Assembly: GCA_021414245.1 (NCBI GenBank)
Contig: JAIOOU010000017.1
Location: 434,001-498,000, forward strand
Length of the DNA: 64,000 nt
Direction of reading: 5' to 3'
From: Chloroflexota bacterium
GTDB lineage: Bacteria > Chloroflexota > Anaerolineae > Anaerolineales > Villigracilaceae
The translations under genes were made by a program, and so were the position numbers. The first letter of the stretch is position 1. Each line of letters opens with the position of its first letter. Positions 11,672 to 19,958 of the stretch are shown here, in pieces. The notes beneath the pieces were generated by a model. The model was not told where the DNA came from, searched no databases, and saw nothing but the letters and a program-made list of their open reading frames with translations.

Positions 11672-12889
11672 CTAGAATTCGGATTTTCCCGGTACGAATT
11701 TCAGCCTTCTGATTCCGATGCCCACGATCAAAATCCCCCCCAACTCAAACGCCCGCCGCAGGAGGGACTCATTCAAACGCAATGAATATCCACCATAAAA
11801 ATCACGGTATTTATCTACATCCCAATCCGGAATGGACATCCAAATTCTATTAAAAATAAATACAACTGCGAAGACGGCGATCACCTGAACAATCGAAATA
11901 CGCGGGCCGATTTCACCGATCAAAATGATCTGGGGCAGGAAAAGAAATGTCGCAAACCGGAACAGATCCGTGCCGCCGTACAGGCTAAGCAGCAGGACCA
12001 GCACCGTGTAAGCTGTCAGATATCTTCGCTGCGGTACCGGCTGCTTAAAATATGCTTCGATAATTTGCCCGGATCCCGCCAGGAAGAAAAGAGGAAGGAA
12101 ATAAGCTGCCGTTGAAAAAATAAAATTCAGGCTGATGCTCGGAATAAGCGGGAGCAACAAAACGTTCATCAATCCTTCCCTTGACAGACTCAGAAGTTGA
12201 AAGTTTTCAGAGACAGGGATCAGGATGCGGGGAAGCAAAATTGCGGGAATGAGGAAAATCATGGATGTGACCAGCTGCCGGACCCAGGTTTTTCCATCTT
12301 CGCCGGGTGCGGTCATGAATAAATATGCTACCAGCGGGATGATATTGAATTCACGGACCTGCGAAGCAAACAGCGTGACAATCAGCAATATGGCGAAATT
12401 TTTTTTGAAGGCCAGATAGGTCTGCAATAAAATCAACGCGTACGCCAGATGGTCGGGCCGGTAAATATCAAACAGCAAAAATTTAACATTATAGAGACTA
12501 AGTGCGGTCACCCCCAAACCCAGACAGGCTCCTTTTCGCGATCCGGTGAGCCAACGCACGAAAAAGTAGACGCCGCTTAATTGGCCGATTGCTCCCAAAT
12601 AAGCCAACAGACCAAACCCCTGCTCAATCGTCAGTCCCAAAGAGGTGAGGCCGTGGACAATCAACGGGCTGATGTACCTGTATGCAAACGGACTTGCCAG
12701 AGGATCGGCATGAAATCCATCCCTTGCCATGGCAATGTAATACGCAAAATCCCAGCCGTTCCTGTGAATATCAATGGAGTTTGTGACCGCATCCAACGCA
12801 ATCACGATCAAACTAGAAAGGGCGATTATCCATAATGCCTCGCGCAGCTTTATGGATTCCACGGGGCGGGGCAAAAATGTTCCATCCAT
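11672..12889 (-). CDS. Polytopic membrane protein of unknown function
   Basis: 405 residues with nine or ten predicted membrane helices. The first outer loop contains NGWDFAYYIAMARDGF and FAYRYISPLIV, a layout shared with uncharacterised GT-C-like integral membrane proteins. It lies 12 bases downstream of the heme synthase fusion on the same strand, with no ribosome site of its own in view, so it may be expressed as the tail of the oxidase operon. Nothing in the sequence ties it to heme or copper. Function is unassigned. Confidence 0.7.
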   Translation of the reverse strand: MDGTFLPRPVESIKLREALWIIALSSLIVIALDAVTNSIDIHRNGWDFAYYIAMARDGFHADPLASPFAYRYISPLIVHGLTSLGLTIEQGFGLLAYLGAIGQLSGVYFFVRWLTGSRKGACLGLGVTALSLYNVKFLLFDIYRPDHLAYALILLQTYLAFKKNFAILLIVTLFASQVREFNIIPLVAYLFMTAPGEDGKTWVRQLVTSMIFLIPAILLPRILIPVSENFQLLSLSREGLMNVLLLPLIPSISLNFIFSTAAYFLPLFFLAGSGQIIEAYFKQPVPQRRYLTAYTVLVLLLSLYGGTDLFRFATFLFLPQIILIGEIGPRISIVQVIAVFAVVFIFNRIWMSIPDWDVDKYRDFYGGYSLRLNESLLRRAFELGGILIVGIGIRRLKFVPGKSEF

Positions 12890-12901: not shown

Positions 12902-14218
12902 TTATACCAATGCGTCAACCACGATCGCCAGAAAAATAAATGCCAGATACATGCTGGACCAGCGATACATGGTCCAGGCCACTTTGTTTCCCCCGATCGT
13001 AAATACGCGCCAGGCCGCATAAAGAAGAAAACCACCCAAAACCAGGGCGGATACCAAATAGACCGACCCCGCCAGGTTGAACAACGGCAGCAATAACGTG
13101 ACTACGATCAGTTCTATCGTGTATACCAGGATGTGCCTGCGGGTTTTTTCCTCACCATGGACCACGGGCATCATGGGAACTCCCGCTTTTTCATAATCCT
13201 TCAAGCGGACAATTGCCAGCGCCCAAAAGTGAGGCGGCGTCCACATGAAGACGATCGCAAAAAGGATCCAGGCCGCCAGTCCAAGGTGACCCGTGGCAGC
13301 CGCCCATCCCACCATGGGAGGAATGGCACCGGCCCCACCTCCGATCACGATATTTTGAACGGTGGCTTTTTTCAGCAGGACACTGTAAAAGATCACGTAG
13401 TAAAAAATCCCGGTCAGGGATAAAAGGGCAGCCAGCAGGTTAACAAACCCCGCCATCACATAATAACTGATCAGGCAAAGAGCCAGGCCATAGGATAACC
13501 CCTCTGCAGCGGTCAAGCGCTGGTCAGCCAACGGCCGTTTGGCCGTACGTTGCATATTCTTATCCAACTCACGATCAATATATTGATTCAAAGCACTTGA
13601 ACCCGCCGCGGCAAGTGCACCACCCAGCAGGGTCCAGAATGCCAGCGAAACGGATGGCCAGGCCTTGCCCCCCGCCACCAGACCCGCAAAGGTGGTAACG
13701 AGTAACAATGCCACGATCAGGGGCTTGGAAAGGGTGAAAAAGTCCCTGACCCGCTGCCGAAAGTCCAGATGTGGGCCAGCCTCCCTGTCCATGCCAAGTA
13801 CTCCGGATGCAAAGACCAGCATTCCAAGAGAAATCCATAATGCAACGGCCGAGAGGGTATGTAAAACCACCAGATGCAGCGGGAAGTTTCGTGCCACTTG
13901 AATGGCGCCCACAAAGGCCTGCCCGAAGAAAAGGACAGCCGTCACAGTGGTAAGCGGGAGCAGTAAATTTTGATCGCGTTGTTCGCGCCATGCCTTCCGT
14001 AACACAAGGGCCATCAAAATCGACGCAATCCCCACCAGTACCAAGTGCACCAGCTTTAAATATCCAATCGGGTCGCTGGGAGTGCACACCGGCAGGCCGG
14101 TGCAATATGCCCAGGCACCGGTAACAGTAACGATCCGACCGACGATCGTCAACAAAAATACAAGCGCAAACAGCGCCAATACCAATCGCGAGAAGGATGA
14201 TCGTAGGGAATATTTCAT
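12902..14218 (-). CDS. ctaB: Fusion of a compact (half-size) heme A synthase-like domain with protoheme IX farnesyltransferase (heme O synthase)
   Basis: 438 residues. Residues 1-140 form four membrane helices resembling one half of CtaA/COX15: a Cys pair (C39, C45) in the first outer loop, a His in helix 2 (H58) and His in or near helix 4 (H115, H120). The Glu three residues before the helix-2 His, conserved in ordinary CtaA, is Lys55. Residues about 160-438 are CtaB, with NQYIDRELDKNMQRTAKRPL covering the first Asp-rich prenyl-diphosphate motif and DYEKAGVPMMP covering the second. CtaB makes heme O from heme B. The CtaA half could oxidise it to heme A, as four-helix archaeal CtaA forms are known. 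The start at 14218 has AGGA eight bases upstream and lies four bases after the SURF1 stop. Confidence 0.88.
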   Translation of the reverse strand: MKYSLRSSFSRLVLALFALVFLLTIVGRIVTVTGAWAYCTGLPVCTPSDPIGYLKLVHLVLVGIASILMALVLRKAWREQRDQNLLLPLTTVTAVLFFGQAFVGAIQVARNFPLHLVVLHTLSAVALWISLGMLVFASGVLGMDREAGPHLDFRQRVRDFFTLSKPLIVALLLVTTFAGLVAGGKAWPSVSLAFWTLLGGALAAAGSSALNQYIDRELDKNMQRTAKRPLADQRLTAAEGLSYGLALCLISYYVMAGFVNLLAALLSLTGIFYYVIFYSVLLKKATVQNIVIGGGAGAIPPMVGWAAATGHLGLAAWILFAIVFMWTPPHFWALAIVRLKDYEKAGVPMMPVVHGEEKTRRHILVYTIELIVVTLLLPLFNLAGSVYLVSALVLGGFLLYAAWRVFTIGGNKVAWTMYRWSSMYLAFIFLAIVVDALV

Positions 14219-14222
14219 ATTT

Positions 14223-14960
14223 TTAGTCCTGCCTTCGCAAATAAAAGGGATATCCAACGAATAATATCGTCGCAAACAGAAACCACTGAAAAGCATAACC
14301 GAGATGAGGCCCTTCGGTCAGGTCCAGCACGGGTTGGGACCTGATGGGCGGCTCAAAATTCTTTTCATCGGCGTCTGGTTGAATATATATGGTCAGGAGT
14401 GGATATGGGCTTTGCTCGGAGATTCTCGCCACATTTAGATTGTTCCAGATATCCAGCCGTTTCACATCCGGACCAAATTCCGGGTCGTCGACTCCGCCGA
14501 AGGCTGGCTTCACCTGCCCAAGCCGGATCTGTCCCGCAACCGTCACCTGTCCGGCCTGGTCATATTTCCGCCAGGCTGCGGGCGAGTCGTTCCCGTCAGC
14601 GGGGATCCAGCCCCGGTCCACAAGAACAGCTCCCCCGTCGAAAAGAAGCGGTGTGATCAGGTGATATCCATACTCATCCCCGTTGTATTGATTCCGCAAA
14701 ACCACCTGATTTTCAAAATCATATTCGCCGGATACTGTTACCCGACGCCACTCCATTTTGGAGATGTCGCCGGGTAAATTCTGATTCAAATTCAGCATTT
14801 CAGCGGAACGCATGGAGGTCACCTGGGCATTGAAGGCGCGGCGCTGCTCCAGCCGATCCAACTGCCAGATACCCAGACGAATGCACAGGGCCGTCCCCGC
14901 AAAGACCAGCAGAGTGGCAAGCAACCAGGATCGGCCAAACATTTTTTTCAAGAGCATCAT
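14223..14960 (-). CDS. SURF1 family cytochrome oxidase assembly protein
   Basis: 245 residues. Two membrane helices, near residues 12-28 and near 220-240, bracket an extracytoplasmic domain, the standard SURF1 topology. Near the N-terminus LGIWQLDRLEQRRAFN matches the SURF1 signature (GxWQxxRxxWK type). Also visible are the conserved region VLVDRGWIPA and the C-terminal YAFQWFLFA. SURF1 helps insert heme into oxidase subunit I. Its ATG overlaps the stop of the upstream cupredoxin-like gene (ATGATG with TGA inside), and its stop is four bases before the heme synthase fusion, so these genes are coupled. Confidence 0.93.
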   Translation of the reverse strand: MMLLKKMFGRSWLLATLLVFAGTALCIRLGIWQLDRLEQRRAFNAQVTSMRSAEMLNLNQNLPGDISKMEWRRVTVSGEYDFENQVVLRNQYNGDEYGYHLITPLLFDGGAVLVDRGWIPADGNDSPAAWRKYDQAGQVTVAGQIRLGQVKPAFGGVDDPEFGPDVKRLDIWNNLNVARISEQSPYPLLTIYIQPDADEKNFEPPIRSQPVLDLTEGPHLGYAFQWFLFATILFVGYPFYLRRQD

Positions 14961-15451
14961 TTTTCTTCTTTTTTCTTGAAGGGCATGATCACGGAATACA
15001 ATGCCAGCAGACCGCCCATCGGAATACCTGAATACAAAATGCCATACAGGCGGGTGCTGAGAGTTAAAGCTTCATGCACATCCAGCCCAAAATATTTGCC
15101 GGGTTGGAATGAGCAGGAATAGGCATAGGACTGGACGGAGTCAAGGGAGAGAGAGGCGGAGGAGCCTGCCGGTATCCACAACGGCCCAAGCTCATGATCC
15201 GCCGTGTCCTCATTTTTGACAATCAGGGTGTCGCCCACCACAAAAGTCATCGAGTCCGGGATGGTTGGCGGCGTTTCGCCCCGTGCAATGCGGTCAGCCG
15301 TTCCTTTCGGAATGATCAGTTCGATCTGCTTTGGCGGACGCGCGGTTTCGCGCAGGAACATGAAGGTGATCTCATTAATGGCGGTGCCGATCAAAAGGCC
15401 GATCACCAGGGAGACCAATATTCGCTTGATGATGATATTAACTGGAGGCAT
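14957..15451 (-). CDS. Membrane-anchored cupredoxin-like protein in the oxidase operon
   Basis: 164 residues. Membrane helices at about 8-33 and 135-157 flank a domain of about 100 residues outside the membrane. That domain has the cupredoxin pattern: a strand ending NEDTADHELG (His86, first copper-ligand position), then a turn PAGSSASLSL, then YSCSFQPG (Cys113). Ordinary type 1 sites read CxxH next; here it is CSFQ, with the next His at 126. Position between SCO1 and SURF1 suggests a role in copper delivery or storage for the oxidase. The family is not one I can name, so the copper role is inference. It starts 21 bases after SCO1 and overlaps SURF1 by four bases. Confidence 0.75.
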   Translation of the reverse strand: MPPVNIIIKRILVSLVIGLLIGTAINEITFMFLRETARPPKQIELIIPKGTADRIARGETPPTIPDSMTFVVGDTLIVKNEDTADHELGPLWIPAGSSASLSLDSVQSYAYSCSFQPGKYFGLDVHEALTLSTRLYGILYSGIPMGGLLALYSVIMPFKKKEEK

Positions 15452-15472: not shown

Positions 15473-16075
15473 TTACTTCAGGAGGAGCCGCACATCATTG
15501 ACAATATCTTCGACCGGCGTTTCAAAGCCATACGAAAGCCGCAGGTTGCCATCCATGTCGATCAGATACACCCGCGCAGTATGATTAACCGTGTAGCCGG
15601 CGGCGGAATCACCCTGGACCTCTTCGCGATAGATGCCGTAGTCATTCCAAATACCCTGCAACACGTCCATCGACCCGGATAATCCCACAAATTTGGAATT
15701 AAAATGGTTGACGTATTGCTGAATCTTTTCCGGTGTGTCCCGTTCGGGGTCCACCGAAACAAAAAGGACCTGGACCAGATCGGTTTTGTTTCCCAGGCTT
15801 GTCAGAACCTGGTTAAGTTCTGCCAGGGTGGTCGGACACACATCCGGACAGGAAGTATAGCCAAAGAACAGCAGGTTGATCTTTCCTTTTTGATCTGACA
15901 AACGAAATCTCTCGCCGTTCGAACGGACCAGCTCGATCGGGGGCGCGACCGGATAGGGTTCCCCATAGGCCGTGCCTCGAAAGCTACCCGAACCTGAGAA
16001 CACGAGGGCCAACAATGCGGCCAGCGCCACCAGGGCGGCAACCATCAGACCCACAACCACAATTTTTTTATCCAT
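15473..16075 (-). CDS. SCO1/SenC family copper chaperone
   Basis: 200 residues. An N-terminal membrane helix (about 5-27) anchors a thioredoxin-fold domain outside the membrane. The copper site is complete: the Cys pair in TSCPDVCPTT (C76, C80) and the distal His in VNHTARV (H165). The protein delivers copper to, or reduces the Cys pair of, the CuA site on subunit II. It is separated from the coxIV-III gene by 110 bases that contain a GC-rich hairpin. Confidence 0.95.
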   Translation of the reverse strand: MDKKIVVVGLMVAALVALAALLALVFSGSGSFRGTAYGEPYPVAPPIELVRSNGERFRLSDQKGKINLLFFGYTSCPDVCPTTLAELNQVLTSLGNKTDLVQVLFVSVDPERDTPEKIQQYVNHFNSKFVGLSGSMDVLQGIWNDYGIYREEVQGDSAAGYTVNHTARVYLIDMDGNLRLSYGFETPVEDIVNDVRLLLK

Positions 16076-16185: not shown

Positions 16186-16971
16186 TTATCCAATTAGTTT
16201 TCCGATCAGGTACAGGGCGGGGTAAAAAATGATCCACACGAGGTCAACAAAATGCCAGTAGACTGCGGCAGCTTCCACTCCCCAGTGCTTCTCGGCAGAA
16301 TAAACACCCTTTCGGGCATTATTCCAGACAACGGCCAGAAAAATCAGGCCGGTAAGGACATGGAAGGCATGCATACCCGTCATCATGTAGAAAACCGCGC
16401 CCATCGGACCATTGGCAGGGTCACCGAAGCTGGCAACCAGTCCCTCCTTGGCAGCCAGCGGCCACTCCACCAGGACCACGCCGAACAAAAACCCGAGGCC
16501 GAGAACAAATGTGATGATCGTATTGTTCATAAAGCCCTTTTTATCCCCATGCGCCATGGCAGTTTCGCCGCGATTCATGAAGAAGGATGAGAGCAGAAGA
16601 ACCGAAGTCACGCCCAGACCGAGCAATTGATTTAAGTGGGGGCGGGTGAGGCCGAGCAGGTTGATACGGGTGGTCAATAAACCGGCAAACACAAAAGCAT
16701 CAGACAGCAAAAAGAGCCATAAGCCAAGGCGCATGGTGCCTGTTTTATATTCATAGGAATGCTGATCGCCTTCAGCGCCTTCGTTCAACTTGTAAATATG
16801 CATGTAGTAGTACATGACCAGGGCAAGTTTTATGACGGCAATCACGACCAGGATCGAGACCGCATCAAAGGTAACGGCGACGAAATATTCCAGGGCAGTT
16901 AGCAGGGCGAGATAGACAAATATAACCACGCCTTGCGCAAGAGCAGAAGATTTATCTTGAGTATGTGACAT
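16186..16971 (-). CDS. ctaE: Cytochrome c oxidase subunit IV-III fusion
   Basis: 261 residues. Residues 1-65 hold two helices with the prokaryotic subunit IV (COX4_pro/CtaF) signature, including VIKLALVMYYYMHIYKL. From about residue 75 a five-helix subunit III follows, beginning TMRLGLWLFLLSDAFVFAG and ending with the helix that contains YWHFVDLVWIIFYPALYL, the strongest subunit III motif. Bacterial CtaE normally has five helices and CtaF is separate, so this is a head-to-tail fusion. The total of seven helices equals that of mitochondrial-type subunit III, so a divergent seven-helix subunit III is an alternative reading. It lies 14 bases after coxI. Confidence 0.88.
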   Translation of the reverse strand: MSHTQDKSSALAQGVVIFVYLALLTALEYFVAVTFDAVSILVVIAVIKLALVMYYYMHIYKLNEGAEGDQHSYEYKTGTMRLGLWLFLLSDAFVFAGLLTTRINLLGLTRPHLNQLLGLGVTSVLLLSSFFMNRGETAMAHGDKKGFMNNTIITFVLGLGFLFGVVLVEWPLAAKEGLVASFGDPANGPMGAVFYMMTGMHAFHVLTGLIFLAVVWNNARKGVYSAEKHWGVEAAAVYWHFVDLVWIIFYPALYLIGKLIG

Positions 16972-16985
16972 TGGTATCCTCCCCT

Positions 16986-18881
16986 TTATTTATGCTTGCT
17001 TTTGGCGGCAGGAACAATGAATTCAACATACTTCGAGCCGGGCAAACCGTAATCATAAGGTTCGCCAACAACTTCAAAGGGTTGATCATAGTTATGGGTG
17101 GGCATGGGCGAAGGCACCTGCCATTCCGGGGATCGGGAATTCCAGACATTTCCCTCAGCCTTCTCGCCTTTTTTGATGCTGTTGAAGAAATTATAAATGA
17201 AGATCATCACGGACAGGCCGATCAGGTAACCGGCAATCGTCATGACCAAGTGAACGTTGTCAAAGCCAAGGGCCGGATCGTAGTCGACGATGCGGCGGCG
17301 CATCCCCAACAGGCCCACATCCATCATGCCCAGGGTCAGCACAAAGAAGGAAGGGGTCATGAGCCAGAAATGAATCTTGCCCAGCGTCTCATTCATGCGG
17401 CGGCCGGTGGCTTTCGGAAACCAGTAATACAAGGCCGCAAAGAAGGGGAATACAAATCCGCCAAAGATCGTATCGTGGAAGTGGCCCACGATGAAATAAG
17501 TGTCATGCAAATGAAGATCAACCGAAATGGTGGCGTTAGGAGGGCCGGTCAAGCCGCCCATCAGAAACACAACAATGGCGCCTACCACGAACAGCATGGG
17601 GGTTTCAAAGGAGAGCTTGCCTTTCCAGATCGTCGCTACCCAGGAAAAGAATTTAACACCGGTCGGGATGGCCACCAACAAGGTGCTGTACATGAACGGC
17701 ACACGCAGGTATTCATTCATTCCAGAAGTAAACATGTGATGAGCCCAAACCAGGAAACCCACCAGGGCAATTCCCATGGAGGACATGGCGATCCAACGAT
17801 AGCCGAAGAGGGGTTTGCGGGCGAACACAGGCAAAAGCTCCGAGATCACACCAAGGCCGGGCAGGACAAATACATACACGGCGGGATGGGAGTAGAACCA
17901 GAACAAATGTTGAAACAGAACAGGATTTCCGCCTTTTGCGGGGTCAAAGAAACCCATTCCCAGCAGTCGCTGGAACATCACCAACTGAAAGGAAAGACCG
18001 ATCAACTGCGTGGCCGTCATGGCAATGATCGAAGTCGCCACGGCTGCCCAGACGAAGATGGGCATGCGCATTGCAGTCATACCCTTGGATCGCATCCGAA
18101 TGACGGTTGCGATCACGTTCAAGGCGCCCAGGATCGACGACCAACCGGCGGTCCATACGCCAAGAAAGAACATCTGAACGCCGACGGGAGCCCGGGCAGA
18201 TAATGGCGGGTATCCAGTCCAGCCAGTGCCAAATCCGCCCAGGACCAGGCTCATCAACAAAAGCACAGCGGCTGGTACAGCAATCCAGTAGGAAAAAGCA
18301 TTTAAACGCGGGAACGCCATATCCTGTGCGCCTAGCAGGAGAGGAACTACATAGTTAATGATGCCGGCCACTCCCAGTAAAATGGAAACAATCATGATCA
18401 TACCGTGCAGGGACATGAGCGTGTTATAGAGCTGCGGACCATTCTGGCCGAATAACTTCATATCGAGGGTCAGAAACTGCAGACCTGATTCAGCCAGCTC
18501 GGTACGGAAAATCAAGGCAAACAAGCCTCCAATACTAATCAGCAACAGGGCGGTGACCGTGTACTGGATCCCGATCACCTTGTGATCGAGTGAAACATTG
18601 AAGTATTTCTCCCAACCGGAATAATGCTCTTCATGGTGTTCGGGTGTTTCGATCCCGCGCGCCCACTTGAACCAGTCTGTCACTGAACCATTGCCGGCAA
18701 GGAAGAAAAGCACGCCGAAAAAGGCACCCAGGACCCAGGCGGGCTCGGTAAAAAAGAATGTGTCTGTCGTACTAAGCCCCATGATCGCGCGTATGCCTGT
18801 GACCAGCCCGGCCCCCACCAGGGTGCCGATCAATTGCCAGAACAAACCACGCATCAGGGCTGTGGAAAAGAATTTCTTCAT
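16986..18881 (-). CDS. ctaD: Cytochrome c oxidase subunit I, A2-type heme-copper oxidase, with N-terminal extension
   Basis: 631 residues. The catalytic subunit reduces oxygen to water and pumps protons. The low-spin heme ligands are H159 and H469, the high-spin ligand is H467, and CuB is bound by H332, H381 and H382, with Tyr336 placed for the His-Tyr cross-link. The motif FYSHPAVY (330-336 region) carries the Tyr-Ser pair of A2-type oxidases in place of the Glu of A1 enzymes. The usual start of the family (LDHKVIGIQY) is at about residue 98; the preceding 97 residues add two predicted membrane helices and a His/Glu-rich loop (PEHHEEH). The gene lies 17 bases after subunit II. Confidence 0.95.
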   Translation of the reverse strand: MKKFFSTALMRGLFWQLIGTLVGAGLVTGIRAIMGLSTTDTFFFTEPAWVLGAFFGVLFFLAGNGSVTDWFKWARGIETPEHHEEHYSGWEKYFNVSLDHKVIGIQYTVTALLLISIGGLFALIFRTELAESGLQFLTLDMKLFGQNGPQLYNTLMSLHGMIMIVSILLGVAGIINYVVPLLLGAQDMAFPRLNAFSYWIAVPAAVLLLMSLVLGGFGTGWTGYPPLSARAPVGVQMFFLGVWTAGWSSILGALNVIATVIRMRSKGMTAMRMPIFVWAAVATSIIAMTATQLIGLSFQLVMFQRLLGMGFFDPAKGGNPVLFQHLFWFYSHPAVYVFVLPGLGVISELLPVFARKPLFGYRWIAMSSMGIALVGFLVWAHHMFTSGMNEYLRVPFMYSTLLVAIPTGVKFFSWVATIWKGKLSFETPMLFVVGAIVVFLMGGLTGPPNATISVDLHLHDTYFIVGHFHDTIFGGFVFPFFAALYYWFPKATGRRMNETLGKIHFWLMTPSFFVLTLGMMDVGLLGMRRRIVDYDPALGFDNVHLVMTIAGYLIGLSVMIFIYNFFNSIKKGEKAEGNVWNSRSPEWQVPSPMPTHNYDQPFEVVGEPYDYGLPGSKYVEFIVPAAKSKHK

Positions 18882-18898: not shown

Positions 18899-19912
18899 TT
18901 ATTTCAGCGTCTTAATATACGCGATGATATTCGCGATTTCTTCCGGAGTTAGGGAATAAGGCGGCATGACTGTCGGGGAGAAGCCCGCGACTTCCTTGGC
19001 CTTGGAGTTCAGGATGGACTCAGATAGGTAGGCATCATCTGCAACCACTGTGGTTCCATCCGCCAGCTCAACAGTAGAACCCGCCAGACCGAACCAGGTC
19101 GGCCCTGTCATCTTGGAGCCGTCCACGGAATGGCAGCCAATACAACCATTCTTCACCGTCAATGCCTGTCCCTTGCCCTCGGGTGTCTGATTGGCCAGGG
19201 CAGCAGCCTGTTGTTCCGTGATCCAGGCATCGTAATCGGATTTTGTATCCACGATCACGCCATTTTCCATATAAGCATGCGAGGCACCGCATAATTCAGC
19301 ACAGCGCACCTTGTAATTCCCCACCAAAATGGGAGTAATCCGGTATTCAGTCACACGCCCGGGAACAACATCCTGTTTGACGCGGAATTCGGGCACCCAA
19401 AAGGAATGGATGACATCCGAGGATTCCATTTTCAAGACCACCTGCTGATCCACTGGAAGATGCAACTCATTGCTGACAATGCCATACTCCGGATATTCAA
19501 AGGTCCAGGAAAATTGCTGGGCTTTTACCTTGATCGTGATCGCATTTGGATCAACCCGGCGTGTTTCCCCAAGTGAATAAGAACCCATATAAGCCAGAAC
19601 CAGCACGGCAAATAAAGGAATTACCGTCCAAACGATCTCCAGGGTAGTGTTTCCTTCAAAATGCTCACCATCGCTTGTATCCCCCTTCCTGCGCCGAAAA
19701 ACAATCATGCTGTAAGCCATCGGCACAACAATGAGGGAGAACAAAAAAGATATTGCCACAATCTGCCAATGCCACAACCAGTCAATTGACAGCGATTGCA
19801 GGCTGGCCTCGACCGGATGCATTTGCGTGGCTACGCCGGCGAGATCCAAGCCCATATAGGTGAGAATGGCCATCACGATAACCAAAATTCCCACAATTAC
19901 AAAGTGTCCCAT
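18899..19912 (-). CDS. ctaC: Cytochrome c oxidase subunit II with fused cytochrome c domain (caa3-type)
   Basis: 337 residues. Two membrane helices (about 4-22 and 49-72) precede the cupredoxin domain. CuA ligands are H169, C204, E206, C208, H212 and M215 (CAELCGASHAYM). A class I cytochrome c domain follows from about 245, with the heme site CIGCH (257-261) and likely axial Met316 (VMPPY). Electrons therefore enter from a fused cytochrome c, as in caa3 oxidases of Bacillus and Thermus. The start at 19912 is preferred over the longer frame to 19957 because AGGAGAG lies just upstream. Confidence 0.95.
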   Translation of the reverse strand: MGHFVIVGILVIVMAILTYMGLDLAGVATQMHPVEASLQSLSIDWLWHWQIVAISFLFSLIVVPMAYSMIVFRRRKGDTSDGEHFEGNTTLEIVWTVIPLFAVLVLAYMGSYSLGETRRVDPNAITIKVKAQQFSWTFEYPEYGIVSNELHLPVDQQVVLKMESSDVIHSFWVPEFRVKQDVVPGRVTEYRITPILVGNYKVRCAELCGASHAYMENGVIVDTKSDYDAWITEQQAAALANQTPEGKGQALTVKNGCIGCHSVDGSKMTGPTWFGLAGSTVELADGTTVVADDAYLSESILNSKAKEVAGFSPTVMPPYSLTPEEIANIIAYIKTLK

Positions 19913-19940
19913 ACGCTCTCTCTCCTGATGAAATATCACA

Positions 19941-19958
19941 CGTGAAGAATAATTCACG
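19941..19958. repeat. Inverted repeat in the oxidase leader
   Basis: CGTGAA and TTCACG flank six bases (GAATAA). It lies between the tandem promoters and the coxII start and could be an operator or a small leader hairpin. Confidence 0.45.

Follow-up and report, generated by a model that had tools for sequence, protein, structure and literature searches.

The heme O synthase CtaB farnesylates heme B. Of the two halves of heme A synthase, CtaA, the C-terminal domain holds heme b and the N-terminal domain seems to be the catalytic one, according to PMC8239418; the role of the heme b in the C-terminal half is described as not fully elucidated (PMC12808453). Fusions between the two enzymes have been recorded before, and a table in PMC8239418 lists type 1.0 and type 1.1 CtaA joined to CtaB in Chloroflexi, Deinococcus-Thermus, Bdellovibrio and others. 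Archaea, in turn, are reported to possess half-size CtaA enzymes (type 1A or 1.4), which comprise a single four-helix half with one Cys pair and are often fused to CtaB, as in Halobacteria (PMC8239418, PMC12808453). As outlined in PMC12808453, type 1A carries the Glu motif E-x-x-H-R, lacks the mirror motif of the C-terminal half, and is, in Archaea, fused to heme o synthase in 154 of 273 cases, mostly from Halobacteria; the same paper, whose alignments exclude fusion proteins, reports type 1A to be absent from Bacteria. In the open-access literature (PMC subset), we found no description of a bacterial orphan C-terminal half attached to CtaB, nor of a link between loss of the N-terminal half and the presence of a separate CtaA.

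The gene considered here lies in a window of 64,000 nucleotides, the whole stretch of DNA that was analysed, from a Chloroflexota bacterium. On the minus strand, positions 12902-14218 form a single open frame of 438 amino acids, in which a CtaA-like half precedes CtaB; a plus-strand reading, in the frame tried, contains many stops. A preliminary description, which gave no strand, had already proposed that one gene joins the two domains, and had numbered Cys39, Cys45, Lys55, His58, His115 and His120 correctly. For the start codon we prefer the ATG at 14218 (stop at 12902-12904) over a longer ATG at 14296, because the initial MKYSL is nearly invariant across 34 members of the genus. From this conserved start, the gene begins just past the stop of surf1.

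The CtaB part, residues 159-438 plus the stop codon (12902-13744, minus strand), is complete. It matches two NCBIfam heme o synthase models with 333 and 303.8 bits, both above cut-off; the latter, TIGR01473, has a cut-off of 210.3 bits and is covered from position 2 to 280 of 281 by residues 159-435. Pfam UbiA aligns to residues 172-421 of the fusion with 213.6 bits, and UbiA folds are recovered by structure comparison. No other CtaB in the source genome exceeds the cut-off, and what distinguishes this protein from CtaB/Cox10 is the extra half at its N-terminus. That half, residues 1-140 (13799-14218, minus strand), is far less conspicuous. Within the whole fusion, Pfam COX15-CtaA (PF02628) reaches 18.6 bits, below its curated cut-off of 29.9, and aligns residues 6-130 with profile positions 180-320; the domain alone attains 4.2e-5 and 23.2 bits against positions 179-320, again below cut-off. 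Of the two four-helix halves that this profile describes, only the one at 180-320 is thus represented. The resemblance to CtaA is not due to chance, since all 37 members of an alignment that combines the half with 36 named relatives (C-halves from two-half fusions among them) match COX15-CtaA over the half domain at E≤1, the best of them at 5.7e-16.

Structure prediction agrees with this assignment. With 36 of 44 usable named relatives as input, near-duplicates having been omitted, AlphaFold modelled the whole fusion confidently, at a pLDDT of 89.7 and a pTM of 0.87. Foldseek matches of this model include, among the matches listed, UbiA-type prenyltransferases and prenyl diphosphate synthases, so that the half was modelled alone (pLDDT 90.1, pTM 0.84); at the sequence level, the whole fusion found nothing among PDB entries at E≤1. 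The half is predicted to form four long helices (residues 8-33, 52-79, 86-109 and 114-141), and its top Foldseek match is 6a2j, CtaA of B. subtilis, at an E-value of 5.9e-3 (probability 1.00, TM 0.83 over the query), with no match at E≤0.001. In a VIA alignment, 141 residues superimpose on residues 153-299 of 6a2j at 2.4 A with a Z of 12.0. Because unrelated helix bundles equal or outscore 6a2j, which ranks 21 in the VIA list, the Z-score by itself proves nothing; the weight lies on the first rank and TM of 0.83 in Foldseek and on the residue range, which is that of the C-terminal domain. With this domain the half shares the fold at 14% identity, standing here without its N-terminal counterpart.

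That the fused piece is the C-terminal, cofactor-binding half of CtaA and no compact catalytic half is a conclusion on which four tests agree: profile, fold, half-specific HMMs and tree. HMMs for each half, built from the N-halves and C-halves of 24 two-half fusions whose genomes lack a separate CtaA, give the fusion 83.8 bits with the C-half model vs 52.8 bits with the N-half model, and the C-half model is ahead in 56 of 57 half domains, the exception being L203 (65.9 vs 58.9). A tree built from 50 halves unites the half domains with the C-halves of relatives from the order in a single clade (ultrafast bootstrap 89) and leaves the type 1 N-halves outside; this tree sorts fused type 1 halves only, as the C-half of type 2 CtaA falls outside the C-half clade and beside one N-half. 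The preliminary description was therefore right to see a half-size CtaA on a complete CtaB, with Lys at the place of the Glu of the first CtaA half; its suggestion of a compact catalytic half is not supported. Its parallel with the archaeal half-size enzymes does not hold either: compared by published motif, type 1A keeps the Glu motif without the C-terminal mirror motif (PMC12808453) and would be the opposite half, whereas the fusion, with K-x-x-H-L at helix 2, is a C-half.

Conservation within the half fits this identity. The comparison rests on 56 half-fusions, 55 from the family of the source genome and one from another family (G043). Cys39 and Cys45 (14102-14104 and 14084-14086, spanning 14084-14104), His58 (14045-14047), Gly104 and His120 (13859-13861), all encoded on the minus strand, are invariant in 56 of 56, so that the His/Cys pattern, whose loss in homologues the preliminary description had named as evidence against its reading, is unchanged. 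By alignment column, His58 in helix 2 and His120 in helix 4 correspond to the His pair of the C-half and would be the expected ligands of heme b. His115 (13874-13876, minus strand) is present in 34 of 34 genus members and in 45 of the 56. Cys39 and Cys45 correspond to the second, ECL3 pair, which is dispensable for activity in B. subtilis CtaA, as stated in PMC8239418; their retention is a point against the reading that we favour below.

Lys55 (14054-14056, minus strand) lies three residues N-terminal of His58. As a C-half is not expected to contain the catalytic Glu, which precedes the helix-2 His of the N-half, Lys55 is no lost catalytic residue. How far it is conserved among homologues was a question raised at the outset: Lys occupies the position in 30 of 34 genus members, the others having Met, Gln, Thr and Thr and none Glu, and in 34 of the 56 half-fusions. 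(G013, at a contig edge, was omitted from the genus alignment along with duplicates and two loci of standalone CtaA.) Across the 56, Lys at -3 occurs only where the Arg that normally follows the His is lost: 34 have Lys without Arg at +1, 16 have Arg without Lys, six have neither and none has both. Since the -3 and +1 places are one helix turn apart, Lys55 seems to be a relocated positive charge that substitutes for this Arg; a contact of Lys55 with a heme propionate is conjectural. A single half-fusion has Glu at -3; this is L210, from another genus, and a full-length CtaA is present in its genome, G465.

The source genome, too, possesses a separate CtaA. The preliminary description saw no separate ctaA in the operon, which is true, and named an intact copy elsewhere in the genome as a finding that would count against it; a single such copy is present on another contig (G000:C6:204979-205935), with 353 amino acids and 311.7 bits over profile positions 2-321. 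Judged by eye, it lacks a Cys pair and shows a long first loop together with an EWVHR motif and four His, and by the description in PMC8239418 it would be a type 2 (Cox15-like) enzyme; no oxidase genes were recognised in the 11 kb around it. Because its residue set is complete, this type 2 enzyme is the likely source of heme A. An oxidase left with heme O, as had been suggested in case the half is inactive, was rejected, since the genome encodes a full-length CtaA that has the Glu and four His.

The same pairing recurs among relatives. Of 37 genomes in the genus, 35 match the fusion and 35 encode a full-length CtaA. Among 150 genomes of the family, 111 have a half-fusion (G013, G485 and G512 being counted on weaker matches), and 104 of these 111 also have a full-length CtaA, which is of the high-scoring type 2 kind in 90 and of a lower-scoring kind in 14; G460 and G511, whose CtaA matches are low or partial, were assigned to neither kind. 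CtaA without a half-fusion occurs in seven of the 150, two of them due to contig ends: in G028 the contig stops after surf1 and in G541 after cox3, at the expected site, so these were not taken as signs that the fusion is dispensable. In the seven half-fusion genomes in which no CtaA was found (G013, G034, G459, G475, G494, G497 and G506), a COX1 match is present throughout; five are 60-88% complete, G494 is 96% complete with COX1 split over contig ends, and G459 is 100% complete with 7% contamination. L241 (G459) and L242 (G494), with a half-fusion, COX1 and no detected CtaA, may reflect gaps or be real exceptions.

These two genomes are one argument for the bifunctional enzyme that the preliminary description had envisaged, in which the half would be a compact heme A synthase, perhaps in homodimeric form as with the half-size enzymes of Archaea, and the fusion would convert heme B into heme A. 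Such enzymes do exist and are themselves found fused to heme o synthase, the Cys pair and the two His are unchanged in the half-fusions, and E57K and E57N variants in the N-half are listed among classified heme A synthases in a table of PMC8239418, so that Lys alone is no proof of inactivity. Against this stand the identity of the half as a C-half by tree, fold and HMMs, the near absence of Glu at -3 (1/56 half-fusions, 0/34 genus members), the statement of another paper that E57 is strictly conserved (PMC12808453), and the complete CtaA in the same genome. We consider a bifunctional enzyme very improbable.

Might the half, then, be a decaying relic of a replaced CtaA, kept merely as a structural lead-in for CtaB? 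It does evolve faster than CtaB, with a median dN/dS of 0.14 vs 0.05, and eroded versions exist (G040, G227 and perhaps G063). However, its dN/dS is well below 1, at 0.03-0.13 in the eight closest pairs and 0.03-0.30 in the 14 pairs listed, the median of 0.14 being taken over 81 pairs, and Cys39, Cys45, His58 and His120 stay fixed while the identity to the half of the source fusion falls to 53% inside the genus. In the family of the source genome the half is under purifying selection, which speaks against a dead remnant there, and the unequal fate of the two halves in relatives, set out next, points the same way. We regard the relic as unlikely.

Two-half CtaA-CtaB fusions resemble the gene studied here in the order of the domains, CtaA before CtaB, and in the residues of the C-half; they differ in having the catalytic N-half. 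We compiled 41 other fused proteins from the order and class, two-half or eroded, with a CtaA-derived domain and CtaB in one sufficiently long frame, and compared them by whether the genome contains a separate CtaA, matches under the cut-off not being counted. In the 24 without one, the N-half residues (C, C, E, H, R, H) are complete in 24 of 24 and those of the C-half (C, C, H, R, H) likewise in 24 of 24. With a separate CtaA, the N-half is complete in five of 17 (G055, G048, G314, G284 and G265) and altered or gone in 12, whereas the C-half is complete in 16, the exception being G040. Loss of the N-half is thus associated with a separate CtaA (Fisher p of 8e-7, relatedness ignored). The correlation is in part one of shared ancestry: a tree of 53 CtaB domains implies at least nine changes in N-half state, and of six independent pairs whose branches are well supported, about five follow the expectation and none is opposed (median p 0.06). 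Of the 24 genomes scored as lacking a separate CtaA, several are incomplete, among them G244 (64%), G321 (69%) and G167 (73%), and five (G217, G199, G180, G070 and G157) have weak CtaA matches under the cut-off, which were not counted. G041 and G339 were dropped from the comparison, their N-halves being unreadable at contig edges; G201 is scored as having lost its N-half, but the frame upstream bears no resemblance to CtaA, so that a frameshift is possible. As a separate observation, the two-half fusion L188 (G111) has Lys for the catalytic Glu in its N-half, and its genome contains another CtaA.

The 41 fusions were mostly picked by a C-half-based profile, which favours intact C-halves. A search anchored on CtaB yielded, among the matches listed, 16 further loci, which do not include some long f52 frames; nine of them are not fused to CtaA in frame and seven were taken as fused. 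Of these seven, four retain the C, C, H, H residues of the C-half (G274, G401, G177 and G219), G193, at a contig edge, has kept the His and lost the Cys pair, and G227 and G063, themselves of uncertain CtaA origin, have no CtaA residues; the N-half is complete in G177 only, and in G401 its first His is Tyr. Where long frames precede CtaB in f52 genomes, and likewise in G363, G071 and G106, they contain no in-frame CtaA, and they were excluded from the fusions. The C-half can therefore erode too; in the loci seen its erosion is rarer than that of the N-half, and within the family of the source genome the C-half is firmly held. Half-fusions without an N-half arose more than once, in that family, in G043 and in G274. 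In the CtaB tree, the G043 half-fusion is the sister of the two-half fusion of G055, and by eye its operon has the same gene order with an extra frame between cox3 and sco. In G040 (L247, 7632-9047, plus strand), a membrane region precedes CtaB, but the Cys and His residues of the C-half are gone from it; a separate CtaA is present, and the locus looks like the end state of decay.

Taken together, we think it probable that the protein is the heme O synthase of the cell, carrying a retained orphan cofactor half of CtaA, and that heme A comes from the separate CtaA. The ancestor would have been a complete CtaA, with catalytic N-half and heme-b C-half, fused before CtaB as in living relatives, although the order of events is reconstructed. 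Once an unlinked type 2 CtaA was present, the catalytic N-half would have become dispensable and been lost, and the C-half stayed. His58 and His120 would hold a b-type heme, making the half a heme site or a dock beside CtaB; this module would serve CtaB, most likely as a docking site for the separate CtaA, as a relay for heme that enters or leaves the active site of CtaB, or both, and heme O would then go to the separate type 2 CtaA to become heme A. Several observations count against this reading: the C-half losses in G040, G227, G063 and G193, the five intact N-halves that persist beside a separate CtaA, and the seven of 111 half-fusion genomes without CtaA. More specifically, and as a tentative suggestion, the cofactor half could have a CtaB-linked function of its own, as a bis-His b-heme module taking up or delivering heme at the heme O synthase. 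Once the chemistry had passed to another CtaA, this module would have been freed of its part in making heme A and retained in several lineages, and in ordinary CtaA the cofactor heme would serve in part as a transfer site between CtaB and CtaA.

A related proposal places the half within the separate CtaA, which it would join as an extra or exchangeable cofactor domain in a CtaB-CtaA complex for the hand-over of heme O. Bacterial CtaA and CtaB are reported to form complexes (PMC9145763, PMC13213658), Aquifex CtaA is described as a trimer (PMC7327177), and 104 of 111 half-fusion genomes also contain a separate CtaA. The separate CtaA owns both halves already, however, and its division by score into two kinds (90 and 14) argues against one specific interface; we consider such a subunit in trans rather unlikely. 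With the retained cofactor half on CtaB as the favoured reading, the case is that of a bacterial family in which the catalytic half of an enzyme is gone and the other half is kept on the preceding enzyme of the pathway, while in other parts of the class 12 of 17 genomes with a separate CtaA show decay of this catalytic half. Such a protein, small and expressible, would allow the role of the cofactor heme and the CtaB-CtaA hand-over to be separated from heme A synthesis. For annotation, it is a warning that a CtaA-like match in such fusions need not imply heme A synthesis, and that the working CtaA may sit elsewhere.

The fusion is the last gene of an oxidase operon that runs on the minus strand in the order COX2 with a cytochrome c domain, COX1, COX4/COX3, SCO1, a 164-residue protein, SURF1 and fusion. 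COX2 (18899-19957) has its cytochrome c domain at the C-terminus (PF00116 and PF00034). COX1 (16986-18881) is the sole one over cut-off in the genome, where the search for a second gave just one weak match, under the cut-off. COX3 with a COX4-like N-terminus forms one protein (16186-16971; PF00510 88.1 bits, PF03626 24.3 bits, the COX4 match being under its cut-off) and is followed by sco1 (15473-16075; PF02630 142.8 bits); surf1 (14223-14960; PF02104 147.5 bits) lies directly upstream of the fusion. Just downstream of the fusion, on the same strand, a 405-residue protein (11672-12889) has no Pfam match and is membrane-like by eye. The 164-residue protein between sco1 and surf1 (14957-15451) has no Pfam match at E≤0.01; by eye, its stretch HELGPLWIPAG...YSCSF is cupredoxin-like and is found again at the corresponding site in L042, L243 and L241. 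The protein is possibly an unrecognised copper-handling assembly factor.
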